Below, piece by piece: positions 12,897-37,026 of a stretch of 37,026 bases of DNA. A program made the position numbers and the translations under genes. The number at the start of each line of letters is the position of its first letter. Positions within the stretch are counted from its first letter, which is position 1. A model generated the notes under the pieces. That model made no database searches. It saw nothing but the letters and a program-made list of their open reading frames with translations, and was not told the DNA's origin. Source of the stretch: Anaerolineaceae bacterium (GTDB lineage Bacteria > Chloroflexota > Anaerolineae > Anaerolineales > Anaerolineaceae); assembly GCA_016927865.1 (NCBI GenBank), contig JAFGLU010000040.1, positions 1 to 37,026 on the forward strand, read 5' to 3'.

Positions 12897-13020
12897 TTAG
12901 AATCTCCATTATTTTCCTATGAACAGCATATCTCGCCAAGATTAAGCGGCGATCAAGGGACAGTTATGGTTGTGTAAACCTGTGAGATGCTGAGCAAAAA
13001 TTTGTTAACAATTCAAAACC

Positions 13021-13048
13021 TTGACGTATTTCTCTCAGGTGGTAAACT
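13021..13048 (+). promoter_or_regulatory. Promoter of lysine (alpha-aminoadipate) operon
   Basis: TTGACG (13021-13026) and TAAACT (13043-13048) have a 16-base spacer. The ATG of a short leader ORF begins nine bases past the -10 box, which implies an almost leaderless transcript. The 12897-13020 stretch upstream holds no gene I can support. Confidence 0.6.
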
Positions 13049-13057
13049 TCCGCCTCA

Positions 13058-13153
13058 ATGAGATCTATGTTGTTAGTTGTCCAGACCACTGATAAGCGCT
13101 TGAAGCGCAAGCTGCCTCACCCCAACCGGGCGTGCTGGCTTTCAGTGGTTTAA
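13058..13153 (+). CDS. Putative Lys/Arg-rich leader peptide (31 aa)
   Basis: A 31-codon ORF between the operon promoter and an intrinsic terminator. The central run is D-K-R-L-K-R-K-L: three AAG lysine, two CGC arginine and two leucine codons in eight. There is no Shine-Dalgarno sequence; the ATG sits at the expected transcription start, as in the argG leader. The Lys/Arg codons overlap the left arm of a hairpin (13085-13097 with 13138-13149) whose right arm contains the end of the ORF. The layout fits a leader peptide sensing lysyl-tRNA (or lysine plus arginine). A real translation product is not proven. Confidence 0.5.
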   Translation: MRSMLLVVQTTDKRLKRKLPHPNRACWLSVV

Positions 13154-13190
13154 TCGGGTTCCGAACTCAGAACCCTTACCCACGTGTAAA

Positions 13191-13220
13191 AGCTCTCCGT
13201 ACCGGAGGGCTTTTTTGTTT
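13191..13220 (+). terminator. Intrinsic terminator/attenuator before homocitrate synthase
   Basis: A 9-bp stem (13191-13199 with 13203-13211, one G-T pair, 3-base loop) is followed by TTTTTTGTTT. It sits about 70 bases before the first structural gene, downstream of the promoter and leader ORF, so operon expression needs read-through. A second small hairpin, GGGTTC/GAACCC, precedes it at about 13157-13176. The 5' edge of the terminator (13189-13193) can pair over 5 bp with 13138-13142, which is weak. Confidence 0.75.
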
Positions 13221-13287
13221 TCCGCAACGTTGGAAAGCAAACCCCTCCAACCCGGCTGGCAAACCTATTTTTTGATGGAGGTGGATG

Positions 13288-14670
13288 ATGGTCGAAATTT
13301 TGGATAGCACGCTGCGAGAAGGCGAACAGACTCCTCAGGTGAACTTCATGATCGAGGAGAAGCTGGAGATTGCCCGGATGTTGGATCGGATTGGGGTGGA
13401 TATGATCGAGGCGGGCGACCCGAGCGTCTCGCCCAACGTGTTTCAGGCAGTCAAGCGCATTGCCGCGTTGAAGCTGCGCGCTGAGATCGTGGCTCACTCG
13501 CTGGCGACCAAGAGCGGCATCGACCACGCCCGCGATTGTGGCGTGCAGCGCGTGGTGGTGTTTTACCCGACTTCCAAGATTCACCTGGAGGCCAAAATGC
13601 ACCGCAGCGAAGATGAGGCCGTGGCGATTGTCTGTGAGCAGATTCGCTATGCGCGCAGCCTGGGACTCAAGGTGCGCTACACCCCCGAGGATGCCTCGCG
13701 CACCGATTTTACCTTCCTGGTGCGGGTGTGCAATGCGGCCATCGAAGCCGGCGCGGATCGCATCAGCTACGCCGACACGCTGGGCATCCTCCAACCGCAC
13801 GAGATGTTCGAGCGCATCACCGACCTGCGCCGCAGCCTGCTGCCCTGCAAAATCGACCTGCACTGCCACAATGATTACGGCCTGGCCCTGGCAAACGTGA
13901 TGGCGGGCATTCGCGGCGGGGCCGATTGCATTCACACCACGGTCAACGGGCTGGGCGAGCGCACGGGCATCCCGGATTTGTGCGAGACGGTGCTGGCTCT
14001 GCGCAACCTGATGGGCGTGGAAAAGTATGATTTGCACGGTTTGACGGAAATTTCGGCATACCTGGAGCGTTCGACGGGCTTTTTCATGGCGCCCAACAAG
14101 CCGGTTACTGGTTTGAATGCCTTCTCGCACAAGTCCGGCGTGCATACCAATGGGGTGTTGAAAGACCCGCGCACCTACGAGAATTTCGATCCGGCTCTGC
14201 TGGGGCGTGAGCGGCGCATTGTGATTGATAAGTACACCGGGAAACGGGCGGTGCAGGTGCGCCTGGAGGAATATGGGGTGACGGTGAATGGCGAGGATCT
14301 GGACAGCATTGTGGATGAGATTAAACGGATGGGGGACGAGCGCAAGATGCTGCACGACGCGGATATCGTTGAGATTGCTGAACGAGTGACGGGGCGCGTT
14401 ATCGATATTTTCCCCAAGGATATCAATGCCCTGGTGATGATCGCGGTGGAGTCGCACGTCTACACCGGCGCGGTGGTGCAGCGGCTGAAGGCACGCAAAG
14501 AGGTTTCCAGCGTATACGAACTGACCGGGGATTACGATATCAGCCTGTATGTGCGCGTGCCGAATACTTGCGATTTGAATAATTTCATCGAGGAACTACG
14601 CTTGATGCCGGGGGTCAAGACGACGGACACGCGGCTGGTGTTGAAGAAGCACGCCGAGGTGGTTGCGTAG
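13288..14670 (+). CDS. lysS: Homocitrate synthase with C-terminal RAM domain
   Basis: A 460-residue enzyme of the isopropylmalate/homocitrate synthase family that condenses acetyl-CoA with 2-oxoglutarate, the first step of lysine synthesis via alpha-aminoadipate. The N-terminal TIM barrel has DSTLREGEQTP, the metal motif DLHCHNDYG, VNGLGERTG and the downstream HKSGVHTNGVL. The last 75 or so residues (from about 378, ALVMIAVESHVYTGAVV) form an Lrp/AsnC-type RAM ligand-binding domain, a fusion known in archaeal homocitrate synthases and likely used for lysine feedback. The second of two adjacent ATGs (13288) fits GGAGG at six bases better than 13285. The neighbouring homoaconitase, dehydrogenase and LysX genes argue against leucine synthesis. 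Confidence 0.85.
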   Translation: MVEILDSTLREGEQTPQVNFMIEEKLEIARMLDRIGVDMIEAGDPSVSPNVFQAVKRIAALKLRAEIVAHSLATKSGIDHARDCGVQRVVVFYPTSKIHLEAKMHRSEDEAVAIVCEQIRYARSLGLKVRYTPEDASRTDFTFLVRVCNAAIEAGADRISYADTLGILQPHEMFERITDLRRSLLPCKIDLHCHNDYGLALANVMAGIRGGADCIHTTVNGLGERTGIPDLCETVLALRNLMGVEKYDLHGLTEISAYLERSTGFFMAPNKPVTGLNAFSHKSGVHTNGVLKDPRTYENFDPALLGRERRIVIDKYTGKRAVQVRLEEYGVTVNGEDLDSIVDEIKRMGDERKMLHDADIVEIAERVTGRVIDIFPKDINALVMIAVESHVYTGAVVQRLKARKEVSSVYELTGDYDISLYVRVPNTCDLNNFIEELRLMPGVKTTDTRLVLKKHAEVVA

Positions 14671-14890
14671 GGGCGCAGCGGTGGAAAAAGGCATGTGAAT
14701 TAACCAGGGTTGAGCTGCGCCCGTGAAGAGAAACCGCAATGGCGCAGAGAGCGCAGAGAGAAAGATAAGAGAGATATTGAAAGACGAACCATCGATGAAC
14801 AGCCAACAGCGGATCGCCGAAAGCGAACAGCGAACCTCTTTCTGGCTAACGGCTGATGGCTTACAGCTTAGAGCATTCTTCGGAGGACAC
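14667..14890. repeat. Composite dispersed repeat, copy A (upstream of lysT)
   Basis: Three blocks in order. The first is a GTAGGGGCGCAGC...GCTGCGCCC inverted repeat (14667-14722), which contains the stop codon of the homocitrate synthase gene. The second is an AACCGCA/GCGCAGAG-type block (about 14731-14765). The third is a TCTGGCTAA...GGCTTACAGCTT block (about 14841-14869), followed by the GGAGGACA ribosome site of the next gene. The same blocks in the same order fill 16198-16424. No gene is seen within it. Confidence 0.8.
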
Positions 14891-16138
14891 ATGGGTACAT
14901 TGGTTGAAGAAATTTTTGCACGTCGAGTTGGACACAGCGTGGAGCCTGGCGAAATCGTCTTGTTGGATGTGGACGCGATCATGAGCCACGACAACACCAC
15001 CCCGCTGGCAATCAAGGCCTTTCGCGAGATTGGCAAACCGCTGCGCGACCCGGACAAGGTGGTGATTCATTTTGATCACGCCTACCCGGCGCCGAACTTG
15101 CTGGCGGCTGAAAACCAGCAGAAGATCACCCGCTTCGTGCGCGAGCAAGGCATCCGCCACTTCTACCGCCGCGGGGTATGCCACCAGGTGATGATTGAGG
15201 AGGGTTTTGTGCGCCCGGGCGGAATCTTGATCGGCGCGGATTCGCACACCGTGACCTATGGCGCACTGGGTGCCTTCTCCACGGGCCTGGGCTCCAGCGA
15301 GGTGGGCGCGGCCTGGGTGACCGGCAAGACCTGGTTCCGCGTGCCGCAGACCATCCTGGTGCGACTGGAGGGACAGACTCAGCCGGGCGTGTATTCCAAG
15401 GACGTGATGATTGCGCTGGCAGGCCAGTTGGGCATGGACGGTGCCACTTACCGGTGTTTGGAATTTGCCGGGTCATATATCGACGAACTGCCCGTACACG
15501 CACGGATTGTGTTTGCCAATATGTCGGTGGAGGTGGGAGCCAAGTGCGGCTTGATTGCTCCCGACCAGCGCACGGTGGATTACCTCCAGCGCGAGACGAA
15601 AGCCCAGCCGCCCTTCGAGGTGTTCCAGGCGATCAACCCGCGCTATGAGCGGGTGATTGAGATGGATGTCTCGACCCTGGAGCCGCAGGTGGCTTGCCAC
15701 CCCGACGTGGACCACGTCAAACCGCTGCGCGAGGTGGCCGGGTTGGAGATCGACCAGGTGTACATCGGTACGTGCACCAACGCCCGCTACGAGGACCTGG
15801 AGATTGCGGCGGGAATTCTGCGCGGGCGGCAGGTGGCCCCCTATACGCGCACGCTGGTCACTCCGGCCAGCCAGACCATCTATGAGAAGGCCCTGGCCAA
15901 CGGCTTGATCCAGGTGTTTCTGGACGCGGGCTGCACGGTGAATGCGCCGGGCTGCGGCGCGTGCATCGGGCGGCATGGCGGGGTGCTGGCTCCCGGTGAG
16001 CGAGCTTTCACTACCATGAACCGCAACTTCATCGGGCGCATGGGCAGCCCCGACGCCGAGATCTACCTGGGCAGCCCGGCAACCGCCGCCGCCACCGCCC
16101 TGGCAGGCAAAATCGCTGACCCCCGGCCGTATGTGTGA
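14891..16138 (+). CDS. lysT: Homoaconitase large subunit
   Basis: A 415-residue aconitase-family large subunit that isomerises homocitrate to homoisocitrate together with the small subunit. The [4Fe-4S] ligands are C295 (GTCTNAR), C355 and C358 (GCGACIG). DSHTVTYGALGAF and the catalytic MSHDN region are also present. Length matches the separate-subunit IPM isomerase/homoaconitase type. The start ATG 14891 follows GGAGG at four bases; an in-frame extension upstream runs through repeat DNA and is not believable. Assignment to homocitrate rather than isopropylmalate rests on the adjacent homocitrate synthase and lysX genes. Confidence 0.87.
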   Translation: MGTLVEEIFARRVGHSVEPGEIVLLDVDAIMSHDNTTPLAIKAFREIGKPLRDPDKVVIHFDHAYPAPNLLAAENQQKITRFVREQGIRHFYRRGVCHQVMIEEGFVRPGGILIGADSHTVTYGALGAFSTGLGSSEVGAAWVTGKTWFRVPQTILVRLEGQTQPGVYSKDVMIALAGQLGMDGATYRCLEFAGSYIDELPVHARIVFANMSVEVGAKCGLIAPDQRTVDYLQRETKAQPPFEVFQAINPRYERVIEMDVSTLEPQVACHPDVDHVKPLREVAGLEIDQVYIGTCTNARYEDLEIAAGILRGRQVAPYTRTLVTPASQTIYEKALANGLIQVFLDAGCTVNAPGCGACIGRHGGVLAPGERAFTTMNRNFIGRMGSPDAEIYLGSPATAAATALAGKIADPRPYV

Positions 16139-16424
16139 GAAGAGGGTTTCTCCACGAATGCACACGAATTCAACGAATGGAAGACGGCAAATTCTTCGTA
16201 GGGGCGCAGCGGTGGAAAAAGACATGAGAATCAACCAGGGTTGAGCTGCGCCCTGTAAGTAGATCAAGAGAAACCGCAGAGGTGCAGAGTTCGCAGAGGA
16301 ACGCAGAGAAAGAAAGAGAAAGACCAAGTAAGAAAGAGATAAAAAAACCAGCGGAAAGTGTACTGCAAAACGCGAAACCAATTCTGGCTAATAGCTGACG
16401 GCTTACAGCTTCTTGGAGGACATC
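16139..16424. repeat. Composite dispersed repeat, copy B (upstream of lysU)
   Basis: Starts with three CACGAAT/AACGAAT tandem units (16152-16178). It then repeats the copy A order: GTAGGGGCGCAGC inverted repeat (16198-16255), AACCGCAGAG/GCAGAG block (about 16270-16310) and TTCTGGCTAA...GGCTTACAGCTT block (about 16382-16411). It ends in the GGAGGACAT ribosome site of the next gene. No gene is seen within it. Confidence 0.8.
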
Positions 16425-16922
16425 ATGGGAAAAGCATGGAAATTTGAAGACAATTTGAATACCGACGAAATCATCCCCGCCCGCTTCAATATCACCATTG
16501 ACGAGCGGGAACTGGCAAGCAAGGTTTTTTGCGAGGTGCGCCCTGACTTTGCTCCGGGCGTGCAGCCCGGCGACGTGGTGGTGGCGAGCTGGAATTTTGG
16601 CTGCGGCTCGTCGCGCGAGCACGCCCCCATTGCTATTCGGGGGTCACAGGTGCGCTGCGTGATCGCGGCGTCGTATGCGCGGATTTTCTTCCGCAATGCC
16701 ATCAACATTGGTTTGCCCATTCTGGAATGCCCCCAGGCCGCCGCCGAGATCAACGAGGGCGACGAGGTGGAGGTAAATCTGACCAGCGGCGAGATTTTCG
16801 ACCGCACTACGGGTCGATCGTTTCAGGCCAAGCCGCTGCCCGAGTTCGTGCTCAAAATCGCCGAGGCAGGCGGGCTGGTGCGCTTCCTCAAAGAGCATTC
16901 GCTCGAGGAGTTGGTCGAATGA
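16425..16922 (+). CDS. lysU: Homoaconitase small subunit
   Basis: A 165-residue swivel-domain subunit that completes the homoaconitase active site. Diagnostic features are the opening KFEDNLNTDEIIPARF and the GCGSSREHAP loop that binds the substrate carboxylate. Length is normal for bacterial and archaeal small subunits. The start ATG 16425 lies close behind GGAGGAC. The end overlaps the next gene by four bases (ATGA), indicating coupling. It shares the assignment caveat of the large subunit; isopropylmalate isomerase is the alternative. Confidence 0.87.
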   Translation: MGKAWKFEDNLNTDEIIPARFNITIDERELASKVFCEVRPDFAPGVQPGDVVVASWNFGCGSSREHAPIAIRGSQVRCVIAASYARIFFRNAINIGLPILECPQAAAEINEGDEVEVNLTSGEIFDRTTGRSFQAKPLPEFVLKIAEAGGLVRFLKEHSLEELVE

Positions 16923-17932
16923 GCGCGCGCCGCATCTGCCTGCTGCCCGGCGATGGGATTGGCCCCGAGGTGATTGGAGCAGCCCGGCGCGCGCTGGAAG
17001 CGCTGCCCGTGCAGTTCGAGTGGTCGGAGGGAGAAATCGGTTTTGGGGCTTACCAGCGCTGTGGTTCACCGCTGCCGGAGGCCACCCTGGAGAAAGTCCG
17101 CGCTGCAGAGGCCACCCTGTTTGGGGCGGTGACCACACCGCCCGATCTCCCTGGGTATTTTTCGCCCATCTTGCGCTTGCGCAAGACCTTTGATCTTTAC
17201 GCCAACCTGCGCCCGATTCGCTCGATTCCCAACCCCGTGTCGCGACAGGGCATCGACATGGTCATTGTGCGCGAGAACACCGAGGGCCTGTACTCGGGGG
17301 TTGAGCGGGTGGAGGAGGACGGGGCGCGGGCGGTGACGGAGCGAGTCATCACCCGGCGCGGCTCGCAGCGCATTGCCCGGGCGGCCTTTGAACTGGCGCG
17401 CAAACGCGGCGCGAGCAAGGTGGCGGTGGTGCACAAGGCCAACGTCCTGCGCCAGACCTGCGGGCTGTTCCGCCGGACGGCCCTGGAATTGGCCGCCGAA
17501 TACCCCGACCTGGAGGTGCAGGAACTGCTGGTGGATACCTGCGCGATGGAGCTGATCCGCGCGCCAGAGCAGTTCCAGGTGATTGTGACCACCAACCTGT
17601 TTGGCGACATCCTCAGCGATGAAGCCTCCATGCTGGTGGGCGGGCTGGGGCTTGCGGCCTCGGGCAATTTGGGCGAAGGGGCGGCGGTGTTCGAGCCGGT
17701 GCACGGCAGCGCGCCCAAGCTGGTGGGCACGGGGCAGGCCAACCCGCTGGCCACGCTGCTCTCGGCGGCCATGATGCTGGAGCATTTGGGCGAGGGCGGG
17801 CAGGCGGCGCGGCTGCGCGCAGCGGTGGAACAGGTGATTGCGGCGGGGCAGGTGACTCCTGATTTGGGCGGCACGCTTCGCACCGAGCAGGTGGTGGATG
17901 AGGTACTTCTAGTTTTGGAGGAAATGGCATGA
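16919..17932 (+). CDS. Homoisocitrate dehydrogenase (isocitrate/IPM dehydrogenase family)
   Basis: A 337-residue NAD-dependent beta-decarboxylating dehydrogenase that oxidises homoisocitrate to 2-oxoadipate. Family motifs are LLPGDGIGPEV at the N-terminus, LRKTFDLYANLRP, IVRENTEGLYSG, HKANVLR, the metal-site segment TTNLFGDILSDEASMLVGG and EPVHGSAPKLVGTGQANP. Motifs alone do not separate homoisocitrate from isopropylmalate or isocitrate activity; the operon context decides. The start ATG overlaps the lysU stop, and its stop overlaps the lysX start, each by four bases. A longer in-frame extension would run back inside lysU and is rejected. Confidence 0.87.
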   Translation: MSARRICLLPGDGIGPEVIGAARRALEALPVQFEWSEGEIGFGAYQRCGSPLPEATLEKVRAAEATLFGAVTTPPDLPGYFSPILRLRKTFDLYANLRPIRSIPNPVSRQGIDMVIVRENTEGLYSGVERVEEDGARAVTERVITRRGSQRIARAAFELARKRGASKVAVVHKANVLRQTCGLFRRTALELAAEYPDLEVQELLVDTCAMELIRAPEQFQVIVTTNLFGDILSDEASMLVGGLGLAASGNLGEGAAVFEPVHGSAPKLVGTGQANPLATLLSAAMMLEHLGEGGQAARLRAAVEQVIAAGQVTPDLGGTLRTEQVVDEVLLVLEEMA

Positions 17933-18777
17933 TCCGAGTAGGTTTTTTGTATACCCGAGTGCGCGTGGAGGAAAAACTCTTGCTGCAGGAGTTCGCCAAA
18001 CGCGACAACGTGGAAGTGGTGCAGCTTTGCGACGAGAACGCTTTCTTTGAGATCGACCGCTTGCCCACCGATGTAGATGTGCTCTTTGAGCGGTCGGTAT
18101 CCTATTCGCGCGGTTTGTATATCTCGCGCATTTTTGCCGCCAACGGCGTGCCGGTGGTCAACCCGCCCGAGACGGCTGAGCGCTGTGGCGATAAGTACGT
18201 CACCAGCCAGATTTTGGTGCAGAACGGCATCCCCACACCGCGGGTGCTGATGGCCTTTTCGGAAGAAGCGGCCCTGGCGGCGGTGGAGGCGATGGGCTAC
18301 CCCTGCGTGCTCAAGCCGGTGGTCGGCTCGTGGGGGCGGCTGCTGGCCAAGGTGGATAACCGCACTACGGCGGAGGCCTTCATCGAGCACAAGGCCACGC
18401 TGGGGGTCAATCACCAGGTGTTTTACATCCAGGAATTTGTCAACAAACCGGGGCGGGATATCCGCGCGTTTGTGGTGGGGGATGAACCGATTGGAGCCAT
18501 CTACCGCAGCTCGGAGAACTGGATCACCAACACGGCGCGGGGCGGGGTGGCGTCCAACTGCCCGGTGACGCCGGAACTGGCGGAGCTGTGCCGTCGCACG
18601 GCGCGAGCCCTGGGCGGGGGACTGCTGGCGATTGATGTGTTCGAGTCGGACAATGGTTTGACGGTGAATGAGGTGAACCATACGATGGAGTTCCGCAACA
18701 GCATCGCCACCACGGGGGTGAACATCCCGGCGCTGATGGTGGATTATGTGATACGGAGTAGTAAGGGCAATTCATGA
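17929..18777 (+). CDS. lysX: LysX: LysW-aminoadipate ligase (ATP-grasp)
   Basis: A 282-residue ATP-grasp ligase of the RimK/LysX type. LysX attaches the alpha-amino group of aminoadipate to the C-terminal glutamate of the carrier protein LysW, protecting it for the later steps of lysine synthesis. Visible features are NPPETAERCGDKYVTSQIL, PCVLKPVVGSWGRLL, the ATP/metal region FVVGDEPIGAIYRSS-NW and VNEVNHTMEFRNS near the C-terminus. ArgX, the ornithine-pathway paralogue, is closely related, and bifunctional enzymes exist. No lysW or later pathway gene is present in the window. The last codons and the stop lie inside a GTAAGGGCA/TGCCCCTAC hairpin. Confidence 0.88.
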   Translation: MIRVGFLYTRVRVEEKLLLQEFAKRDNVEVVQLCDENAFFEIDRLPTDVDVLFERSVSYSRGLYISRIFAANGVPVVNPPETAERCGDKYVTSQILVQNGIPTPRVLMAFSEEAALAAVEAMGYPCVLKPVVGSWGRLLAKVDNRTTAEAFIEHKATLGVNHQVFYIQEFVNKPGRDIRAFVVGDEPIGAIYRSSENWITNTARGGVASNCPVTPELAELCRRTARALGGGLLAIDVFESDNGLTVNEVNHTMEFRNSIATTGVNIPALMVDYVIRSSKGNS

Positions 18778-36664: not shown

Positions 36665-37026
36665 ATGAGGATCCATCGGGGCTACAAGACCAAGTTAGAC
36701 CTGACAGAACAACAGCGACAAACGTGTATTCGTCATGCCGGAGCAGCACGCTATGCATATAACTTTGGACTAGCCCGCAAGCTCGAAGCCTACCGATCGG
36801 GACAGAAAGTCCCCACAGCCATTGACCTGCACCGGGAACTGAATGCGCTCAAGAAAAGCGAACTGGCCTGGATGTACGAGGTGTCCAAGTGCGCGGGTCA
36901 AGAAGCCCTGCGAGACCTGGATCGAGGATGCAAGAACTATTTCCGCGGATTGGACGAGAACAAGGCGGGCAAGAAGACCAAGGTCGGCTACCCGCGCTTC
37001 AAATCCCGGAAGAAAGGCATCGGCAG
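36665..37026 (+). CDS. tnpB: TnpB-like RNA-guided nuclease of IS200/IS605 family, 3' end beyond window
   Basis: The first 120 residues of a TnpB/OrfB (IS1341/IS605-type) protein. Recognisable are the N-terminal YKTKLDLTEQQ, RYAYNFGLARKLEAY, the ELNALKKSELAWMYEVSK region and KVGYPRFKSRKKG, which leads into the beta-barrel/WED part. The RuvC and zinc-finger parts lie past position 37026. No tnpA is seen upstream. The -10-like TACAAT at 36653-36658 lies six bases before the ATG and there is no RBS, again suggesting leaderless expression. The right end, where the guide RNA would be encoded, is not visible. Confidence 0.9.
   Translation, partial: MRIHRGYKTKLDLTEQQRQTCIRHAGAARYAYNFGLARKLEAYRSGQKVPTAIDLHRELNALKKSELAWMYEVSKCAGQEALRDLDRGCKNYFRGLDENKAGKKTKVGYPRFKSRKKGIG

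Follow-up and report, generated by a model that had tools for sequence, protein, structure and literature searches.

The lysine operon of this Anaerolineaceae bacterium is preceded by a leader that is, with a probability of about 0.88, a ribosome-mediated (trp-type) transcription attenuator sensing lysyl-tRNA. The reading as a leader peptide combined with a terminator/antiterminator switch is supported by comparative evidence from related leaders. Coordinates refer to the window, i.e. the whole stretch of 37,026 nucleotides that was analysed, in which the leader comprises the following elements.

13021-13048, + strand: promoter with -35 element TTGACG (13021-13026), a 16-nt spacer and an extended -10 element TGG-TAAACT (hexamer TAAACT at 13043-13048)
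13058-13153, + strand: leader ORF of 31 codons plus TAA (13151-13153), peptide MRSMLLVVQTTDKRLKRKLPHPNRACWLSVV
13094, 13103 and 13109, + strand: control codons Lys13, Lys16 and Lys18 of the leader ORF
13083-13151, + strand: hairpin P1 (segments 1:2), in which 13083-13092 pairs with 13142-13151
13137-13142, + strand: GGCUUU, 5' strand of the proposed antiterminator, with AAAGCU in the terminator 5' arm as partner
13156-13175, + strand: predicted hairpin GGGUUC...GAACCC, apical part of the proposed antiterminator
13188-13214, + strand: intrinsic terminator, a 12-pair stem (13188-13199/13203-13214) followed by a U-tract

The promoter, the nine bases to the ATG and the 31-codon ORF that a preliminary description had read from the letters were all found at 13021-13153, the ATG at 13058 lying nine bases past the -10 element. 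The K-R-L-K-R-K cluster was exactly as described, with Arg14 and Arg17 interspersed with the three lysine codons. With an RNA start probably near 13055, the start would be near-leaderless. The hairpin reported over the lysine codons (13085-13097 with 13138-13149) was refined to the nearby closing stem 13083-13092/13142-13151, the 5' strand of which adjoins the lysine codons while its 3' end touches the stop codon. The terminator was located downstream of the ORF, where it had been placed, and the leader ends about 70 nt upstream of the homocitrate synthase gene.

Folding of the 172-nt leader yielded -59.8 kcal/mol versus -45.0 ± 3.8 kcal/mol for 200 shuffled sequences (z = -3.9), the native sequence being more stable than 200/200 shuffles, and the free fold was a multibranched element. 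The GGCUUU:AAAGCU pairing is a predicted fold, obtained with the ribosomal A-site at 13103-13109; an equivalent pairing covaries in relatives. An Rfam search of the window revealed no family at gathering score, and neither the L-box lysine riboswitch nor the T-box gave a covariance-model match in the window. At E ≤ 10, six sub-threshold matches fell within 12900-13300, the best reaching 22 bits versus 55 needed and being mostly driven by the terminator.

Under the proposed attenuation mechanism, transcription would begin almost on the AUG. When lysyl-tRNA is plentiful, the ribosome would clear the lysine codons and run on to the stop codon at the distal end of P1; segment 2 would then be covered or held in P1, the terminator at 13188-13214 would form and RNA polymerase would halt before hcs. 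When lysyl-tRNA is scarce, the ribosome would stall at Lys13, Lys16 or Lys18 and P1 would stay open, so that its freed 3' strand GGCUUU (13137-13142) could pair with AAAGCU around the 13156-13175 hairpin. The resulting antitermination would allow readthrough into the five genes listed below.

13285-14670, + strand: hcs, first gene of the operon, homocitrate synthase family, with an Lrp/AsnC ligand-binding (RAM) domain at the C terminus
14723-16138, + strand: hacA, large subunit of the homoaconitase/isopropylmalate dehydratase family
16413-16922, + strand: hacB, small subunit of the same family
16727-17932, + strand: gene of the homoisocitrate/isopropylmalate dehydrogenase family, with similarity from about residue 68
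17929-18777, + strand: lysX, above the TIGR02144 cut-off

Judged by their sequence similarities, these genes together are the lysine-specific arm of the alpha-aminoadipate pathway. The hcs product scored 410.1 bits against homocitrate synthase TIGR02146 (cut-off 413.55) and reached none of the listed NCBIfam cut-offs; the name is based on this score lying so near the cut-off, on a Pfam HCS_D2 domain and on the operon context. Its RAM domain (residues 384-454) is a possible allosteric lysine site besides the attenuator. As similarity of hacA begins at residue 59, its true start probably lies downstream. Close hcs relatives (E ≤ 1e-120) were uncommon, being found in 8/396 sampled genomes of the class, 48/400 of the order, 6/301 of the phylum and 16/147 of the family, in samples that overlap and include the window's genome. 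At the far end of the window (36665-37026, + strand), the start of a gene resembling, by eye, a TnpB/OrfB transposon protein is cut by the contig end.

To assess how widely the leader occurs, 53 hcs loci were parsed, 52 of them distinct; L038, which lies at the position of L004, and L039, which lacks upstream sequence, were left unparsed and genome G637 was not in the set. A leader stood directly before hcs in 48 of the 52, with the ATG 5-14 bases past the -10 element and a terminator detected by script in 47 of the 48. At L058 the contig provides only 136 nt upstream. In L007, L009 and L064, lysW precedes hcs, with lysX also ahead in L007 and L009, and here the leader stands in front of lysW, as follows.

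L007, leader before lysW: D-K-R-R-K, MNLSNPTPFFLSFGDKRRKP..
L009/L165, leader before lysW: D-K-R-R, MNGPVFLLNGDKRRNLP..
L064, leader before lysW: T-K-Q-G-Q, MNKLFVVSFWTKQGQYNSPTPM, with a single Lys at the control place

Since these three leaders precede lysW, a leader is found ahead of the lysine run in 51 of 52 distinct loci. In genome G308, a K-S-K-R leader stands in front of lysX. A second lysine leader in genome G044 (L118, contig C94, 30875-31029) is very like the first one of that genome; the hcs-like ORF behind it has only 62 codons and is probably a truncated duplicate.

For the folding tests, L040 (same sequence as L035), L058 and L009 (no leader by script) and L055 (terminator below the script threshold) were dropped, as were L007 and L064, where the script matches lay in lysX and lysW and the real leaders before lysW, so that 47 leaders entered. 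The leaders of G115 and G308 and the second one of G044 are outside the 47. In each leader a reference Lys was taken, lying at codons 11-16; because it was set by a Lys-containing pattern, its presence is not counted as evidence, and in K-R-x-K-R leaders, the window's included, the pattern took the first and not the last Lys. Two nearby lysines within the first 20 residues were present in 45 of the 47. Lys-Arg occurred in 42 and was absent from five (K-S-K-H once, K-Q-L-K-K four times); therefore lysine, not arginine, is the conserved signal. Arginine is thus not essential at hcs.

A covariance model, R1, was built from 32 other leaders with the window's sequence excluded. Its best match in the window's genome was 13098-13222 (E = 1.3e-4). 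Together with the layout that 48 of 52 distinct loci show directly ahead of hcs, this makes chance an unlikely explanation, as had been supposed from the two leaders of the window. Matches at E ≤ 0.1 were obtained in 18/20 genomes, many being the model's own training sequences. At genome scale R1 failed to find part of the leaders in the window's genus and in genus g9: those of G002 and G763 were not found and the sole G674 match lay elsewhere, all three being recovered in a smaller search (E of 4e-5, 0.004 and 0.006 for G002, G763 and G674, respectively). The G026 leader gave no R1 match. Many weaker matches cover only model positions of about 100 to 148, which is the terminator, and five of 14 inspected (L135, L155, L156, L160 and L162) look like chance and were set aside.

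Two further leader-like arrangements were met in these loci. In L151 (987-1182, genome G505), a leader-like ORF with a Val/Leu/Ile run, seen by eye, is followed by a terminator and by an ilvD gene that scores slightly under its cut-off and has 421 residues within the locus; the same layout here probably forms a branched-chain attenuator. In L134 (1501-1630, genome G452), a terminator likewise follows a leader-like ORF, which carries a run of Asn and Thr (DNTNRNTRT), and the gene behind them shows a weak similarity to PLP-dependent enzymes (79 bits versus a cut-off of 415).

The comparative alignment of leaders upstream of homocitrate synthase genes, which the preliminary description had named as a check, revealed a conserved leader in which terminator and antiterminator covary. 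RNAalifold alone, run on a truncated MAFFT alignment, gave almost no consensus structure; therefore, the structures were written by hand and then counted. Alignment A2 comprised 32 of the 47 leaders, picked by peptide endings, the 15 excluded ones including all of the window's genus. P1 and the terminator were paired in 95.8% of cells, and 13 pairs were changed on both sides, values that 0/500 shuffles reached in either case. The antiterminator, the columns of which were chosen by eye on A2 itself, was paired in 82.7% of cells (0/500 shuffles), with nine pairs changed on both sides (5/500) and 32 double-change cells versus 14.4 in shuffles (0/500); further pair types were no more frequent than in shuffles (102/500). 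Sliding the antiterminator partners dropped pairing to 30-53%. As the antiterminator uses the first three 5' columns of the terminator, the two folds appear, by sequence comparison, to be mutually exclusive in these relatives and to share bases of the terminator 5' arm.

Strand swaps were carried out on 20 representatives, obtained by clustering at 75% identity and covering all leader kinds. Own antiterminator strands paired at -19.1 kcal/mol versus -16.5 kcal/mol for swapped ones, and 0/5000 permutations were as good, with control values of 482/5000 (reversed strand), 4145/5000 (upstream) and 4308/5000 (promoter). A first, cruder swap test had given p = 0.011. Swapping the terminator 5' arm alone revealed no own-partner signal (1651/5000). 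An antiterminator consisting of the terminator 5' arm and segment 2 only was rejected, as it gave no clear signal in the swap tests; the flanking elements GGU:ACC and CAGG:CCUG, visible in the alignment, seem to be required for the antiterminator as well. For the window's own genus the antiterminator is probable by extension from these relatives, and for the window alone it is a predicted fold.

To simulate stalling, the ribosome-covered RNA was removed and the remainder folded, the RNA being cut off where the terminator 5' arm ends. Across the 47 leaders, pairing of this arm with upstream RNA was 0.38 when the A-site stood 2-6 codons before the reference Lys, 0.64 when it stood on that Lys or up to three codons past it, and 0.18 at 12-15 codons past it. 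The value at Lys exceeded the earlier one in 42/47 and the later one in 44/47 leaders (17/20 and 19/20 representatives, respectively). The window leader gave 0.35 earlier, 0.37 at the first Lys (+0 to +3 average) and 0.10 later, with 0.46 at Lys16 and 0.62 at Lys18, the effect being clear only at Lys18. Thus, the model predicts across leaders that a stall at the control codons favours the antiterminator and passage to the stop codon favours the terminator. With the full terminator present, its probability remained above 0.5 in 40/47 leaders under simulated stall (mean 0.82 versus 0.95 when free); therefore, the switch must be kinetic.

The window carries a second leader on the opposite strand, in front of argG.

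1116-1187, - strand: argG leader ORF, MLFPRELRLRRKPSLPTLWDRSA, with four Arg codons at positions 5-11
about 1057-1038, - strand: terminator of the argG leader
990, - strand: beginning of argG

R1 matched weakly over this leader (1027-1158, - strand, E = 0.034). A promoter search in 18 genomes revealed a leader at 17 of 18 argG loci, L090 being the one without; L080 has no scripted terminator, and in L084 the start lies 37 bases from the -10 element. Arg-Arg was present in 17/17 argG leaders versus 1/47 hcs leaders, and two nearby lysines in 4/17 versus 45/47. Three further argG leaders were found via R1; two read R-T-R-R and R-S-R-R, and the third, L150, reads R-P-R-S-K and lacks Arg-Arg. In 16 of the 17 argG leaders, the simulated stall profile centred on Arg-Arg mirrored that of the lysine leaders; the own-strand test on argG leaders was weak (268/5000). 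The parallel with argG drawn earlier therefore holds: the same plan carries clustered lysines before hcs and Arg-Arg before argG.

In genome G108, an Arg-led operon (L106, 6750-15132) comprises argG, argH, lysW, a second lysX, argC, the [LysW]-aminoadipate kinase gene (lysZ), a lysJ-like and a lysK-like gene, and the Lys-led genes lie just upstream of it. The Arg-led operon consists of steps that lysine and arginine could share, and the second lysX suggests, from gene content, that Anaerolineales use LysW for making arginine in addition to lysine. We tentatively propose that Anaerolineales split a shared LysW-based pathway between two homologous attenuators differing mainly in their control codons, the pair integrating both supplies. 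In such a division, the lysine-specific arm would have K-x-K-R and the arginine operon, which holds the shared LysW module, R-x-R-R, while K-R-R is read in two genomes that have lysW in the lysine run. If true, the leaders would form a natural series of codon swaps, specificity having been re-aimed on a single RNA scaffold by changing two or three codons.

Since the LysW module would serve both pathways, the hcs leader could also sense lysine and arginine jointly, with either shortage inducing the operon, which would refine rather than exclude attenuation through lysyl-tRNA. In line with this are the Lys-Arg in 42/47 hcs leaders, the position of the +1 codon within the productive stall window, the shared LysW genes in the Arg-led operon of G108, and the K-R-R of two of the three leaders with lysW in the lysine run. 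However, the K-S-K-H and K-Q-L-K-K leaders lack that arginine, the third lysW leader reads T-K-Q-G-Q, and AAG-CGC could persist for reasons of codon context or RNA. We regard joint sensing as rather unlikely.

Evolutionary change in the ORF served to judge whether it is translated. In the stretch from the ATG to the Lys motif, codons with a single difference showed 274 synonymous versus 97 non-synonymous changes, with 18.7% synonymous expected, and differences at codon positions 1/2/3 were 166/98/350 (122 pairs). Like the other counts over related sequences given here, these pairwise counts are not independent; they show direction, with no significance level. Of the 47 leaders examined, 43 have the word AARCGN within 75 nt of the ATG; in 42 of these it is in frame 0, at six distances. 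Past the lysine codons several leaders shift frame (SVVGFG and LRLSELG endings) while the RNA hairpin is kept. Up to its lysine codons the ORF thus shows the evolution of a coding sequence and appears to be translated.

This pattern bears on nascent-peptide arrest of the TnaC/SecM type, where the peptide would sense lysine or another ligand in the exit tunnel. Some clades do retain the peptide past the lysines (e.g. MFRDRASILMEAKAKRKP..VVGFG), but the N-terminal parts vary between clades, the frame shifts after Lys leave the RNA intact, and Lys is replaced by Arg according to the operon, which makes such arrest very improbable. Even less credible is a riboswitch or protein-binding attenuator, in which P1 or a three-way junction would sense lysine or a precursor directly and the ORF would be incidental. 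Its appeal lies in the well conserved, covarying P1 and terminator and in the multibranched free fold of the window leader; against it are the synonymous excess in the ORF, the in-frame Lys-Arg codons at varied distances and the Arg-Arg that the same RNA plan has before argG. The riboswitch and T-box readings were rejected because of the absent Rfam matches together with the coding signature. Relatives keeping the terminator and a riboswitch-like fold with no ORF, which the preliminary description had named as contrary evidence, were not encountered in the examined loci. The least plausible reading is a constitutive terminator accompanied by a small ORF that is unregulated or unrelated. It would be compatible with regulation having been deduced from sequence and in silico folding, but two mutually exclusive covarying folds, a stall window opening at the lysine codons and a leader ahead of the operon in 51/52 distinct loci speak against it.

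Attenuation through lysyl-tRNA has known counterparts. A leader-peptide attenuation of the Thermus thermophilus lysine cluster was reportedly described by Tsubouchi et al. in J Biol Chem in 2005. That system is likewise reported to concern lysine, the alpha-aminoadipate/LysW pathway, a leader peptide and transcription attenuation; it belongs to another phylum. A plasmid protein search meant for a comparison with Thermus gave matches below 60% identity, 13 Thermus records among them. A lysine leader peptide, new to the preliminary description, would accordingly not be wholly new. In the trp, his, leu, ilv and thr attenuators of Proteobacteria, control codons lie at the base of a 1:2 hairpin, with 2:3 as antiterminator and 3:4 as terminator. 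The window leader shares this plan but differs in its lysine codons, near-leaderless start and occurrence in Chloroflexota. Because of the textbook attenuators and the reported Thermus case, the mechanism is not novel in kind. Lysine genes are also controlled by the L-box riboswitch, often before a terminator; to this family (RF00168) the window leader has no match.

His attenuation is described in PMC9413887. According to PMC10117765, Sinorhizobium meliloti trpL/rnTrpL is a leaderless leader ORF at the RNA 5' end within an attenuator, and thus a precedent for the near-leaderless start, which senses tryptophan instead. According to PMC6386406, two adjacent Arg codons in the leader ORF orf34 of Salmonella speF sense arginine, acting via Rho and RNase G on a polyamine gene; this is relevant only to the argG leader. 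A search of the open-licence literature, to which most subscription journals do not belong, revealed neither a lysine attenuator nor an argG attenuator described for Chloroflexota; this also holds for PMC3556520, PMC4833913, PMC9413887, PMC10117765 and PMC6386406. Within that literature and as far as these searches show, the family of leaders in Chloroflexota is new, as are its near-leaderless start and the pairing of matched Lys and Arg leaders.

Lysine attenuation by a leader peptide is here extended to Chloroflexota, backed by broad comparative evidence. The same genomes hold Lys and Arg leaders that match in architecture, which makes codon-specific sensing testable by natural swaps, and bacteria that use LysW for lysine, and apparently for arginine too, may divide the control of shared steps in this way.
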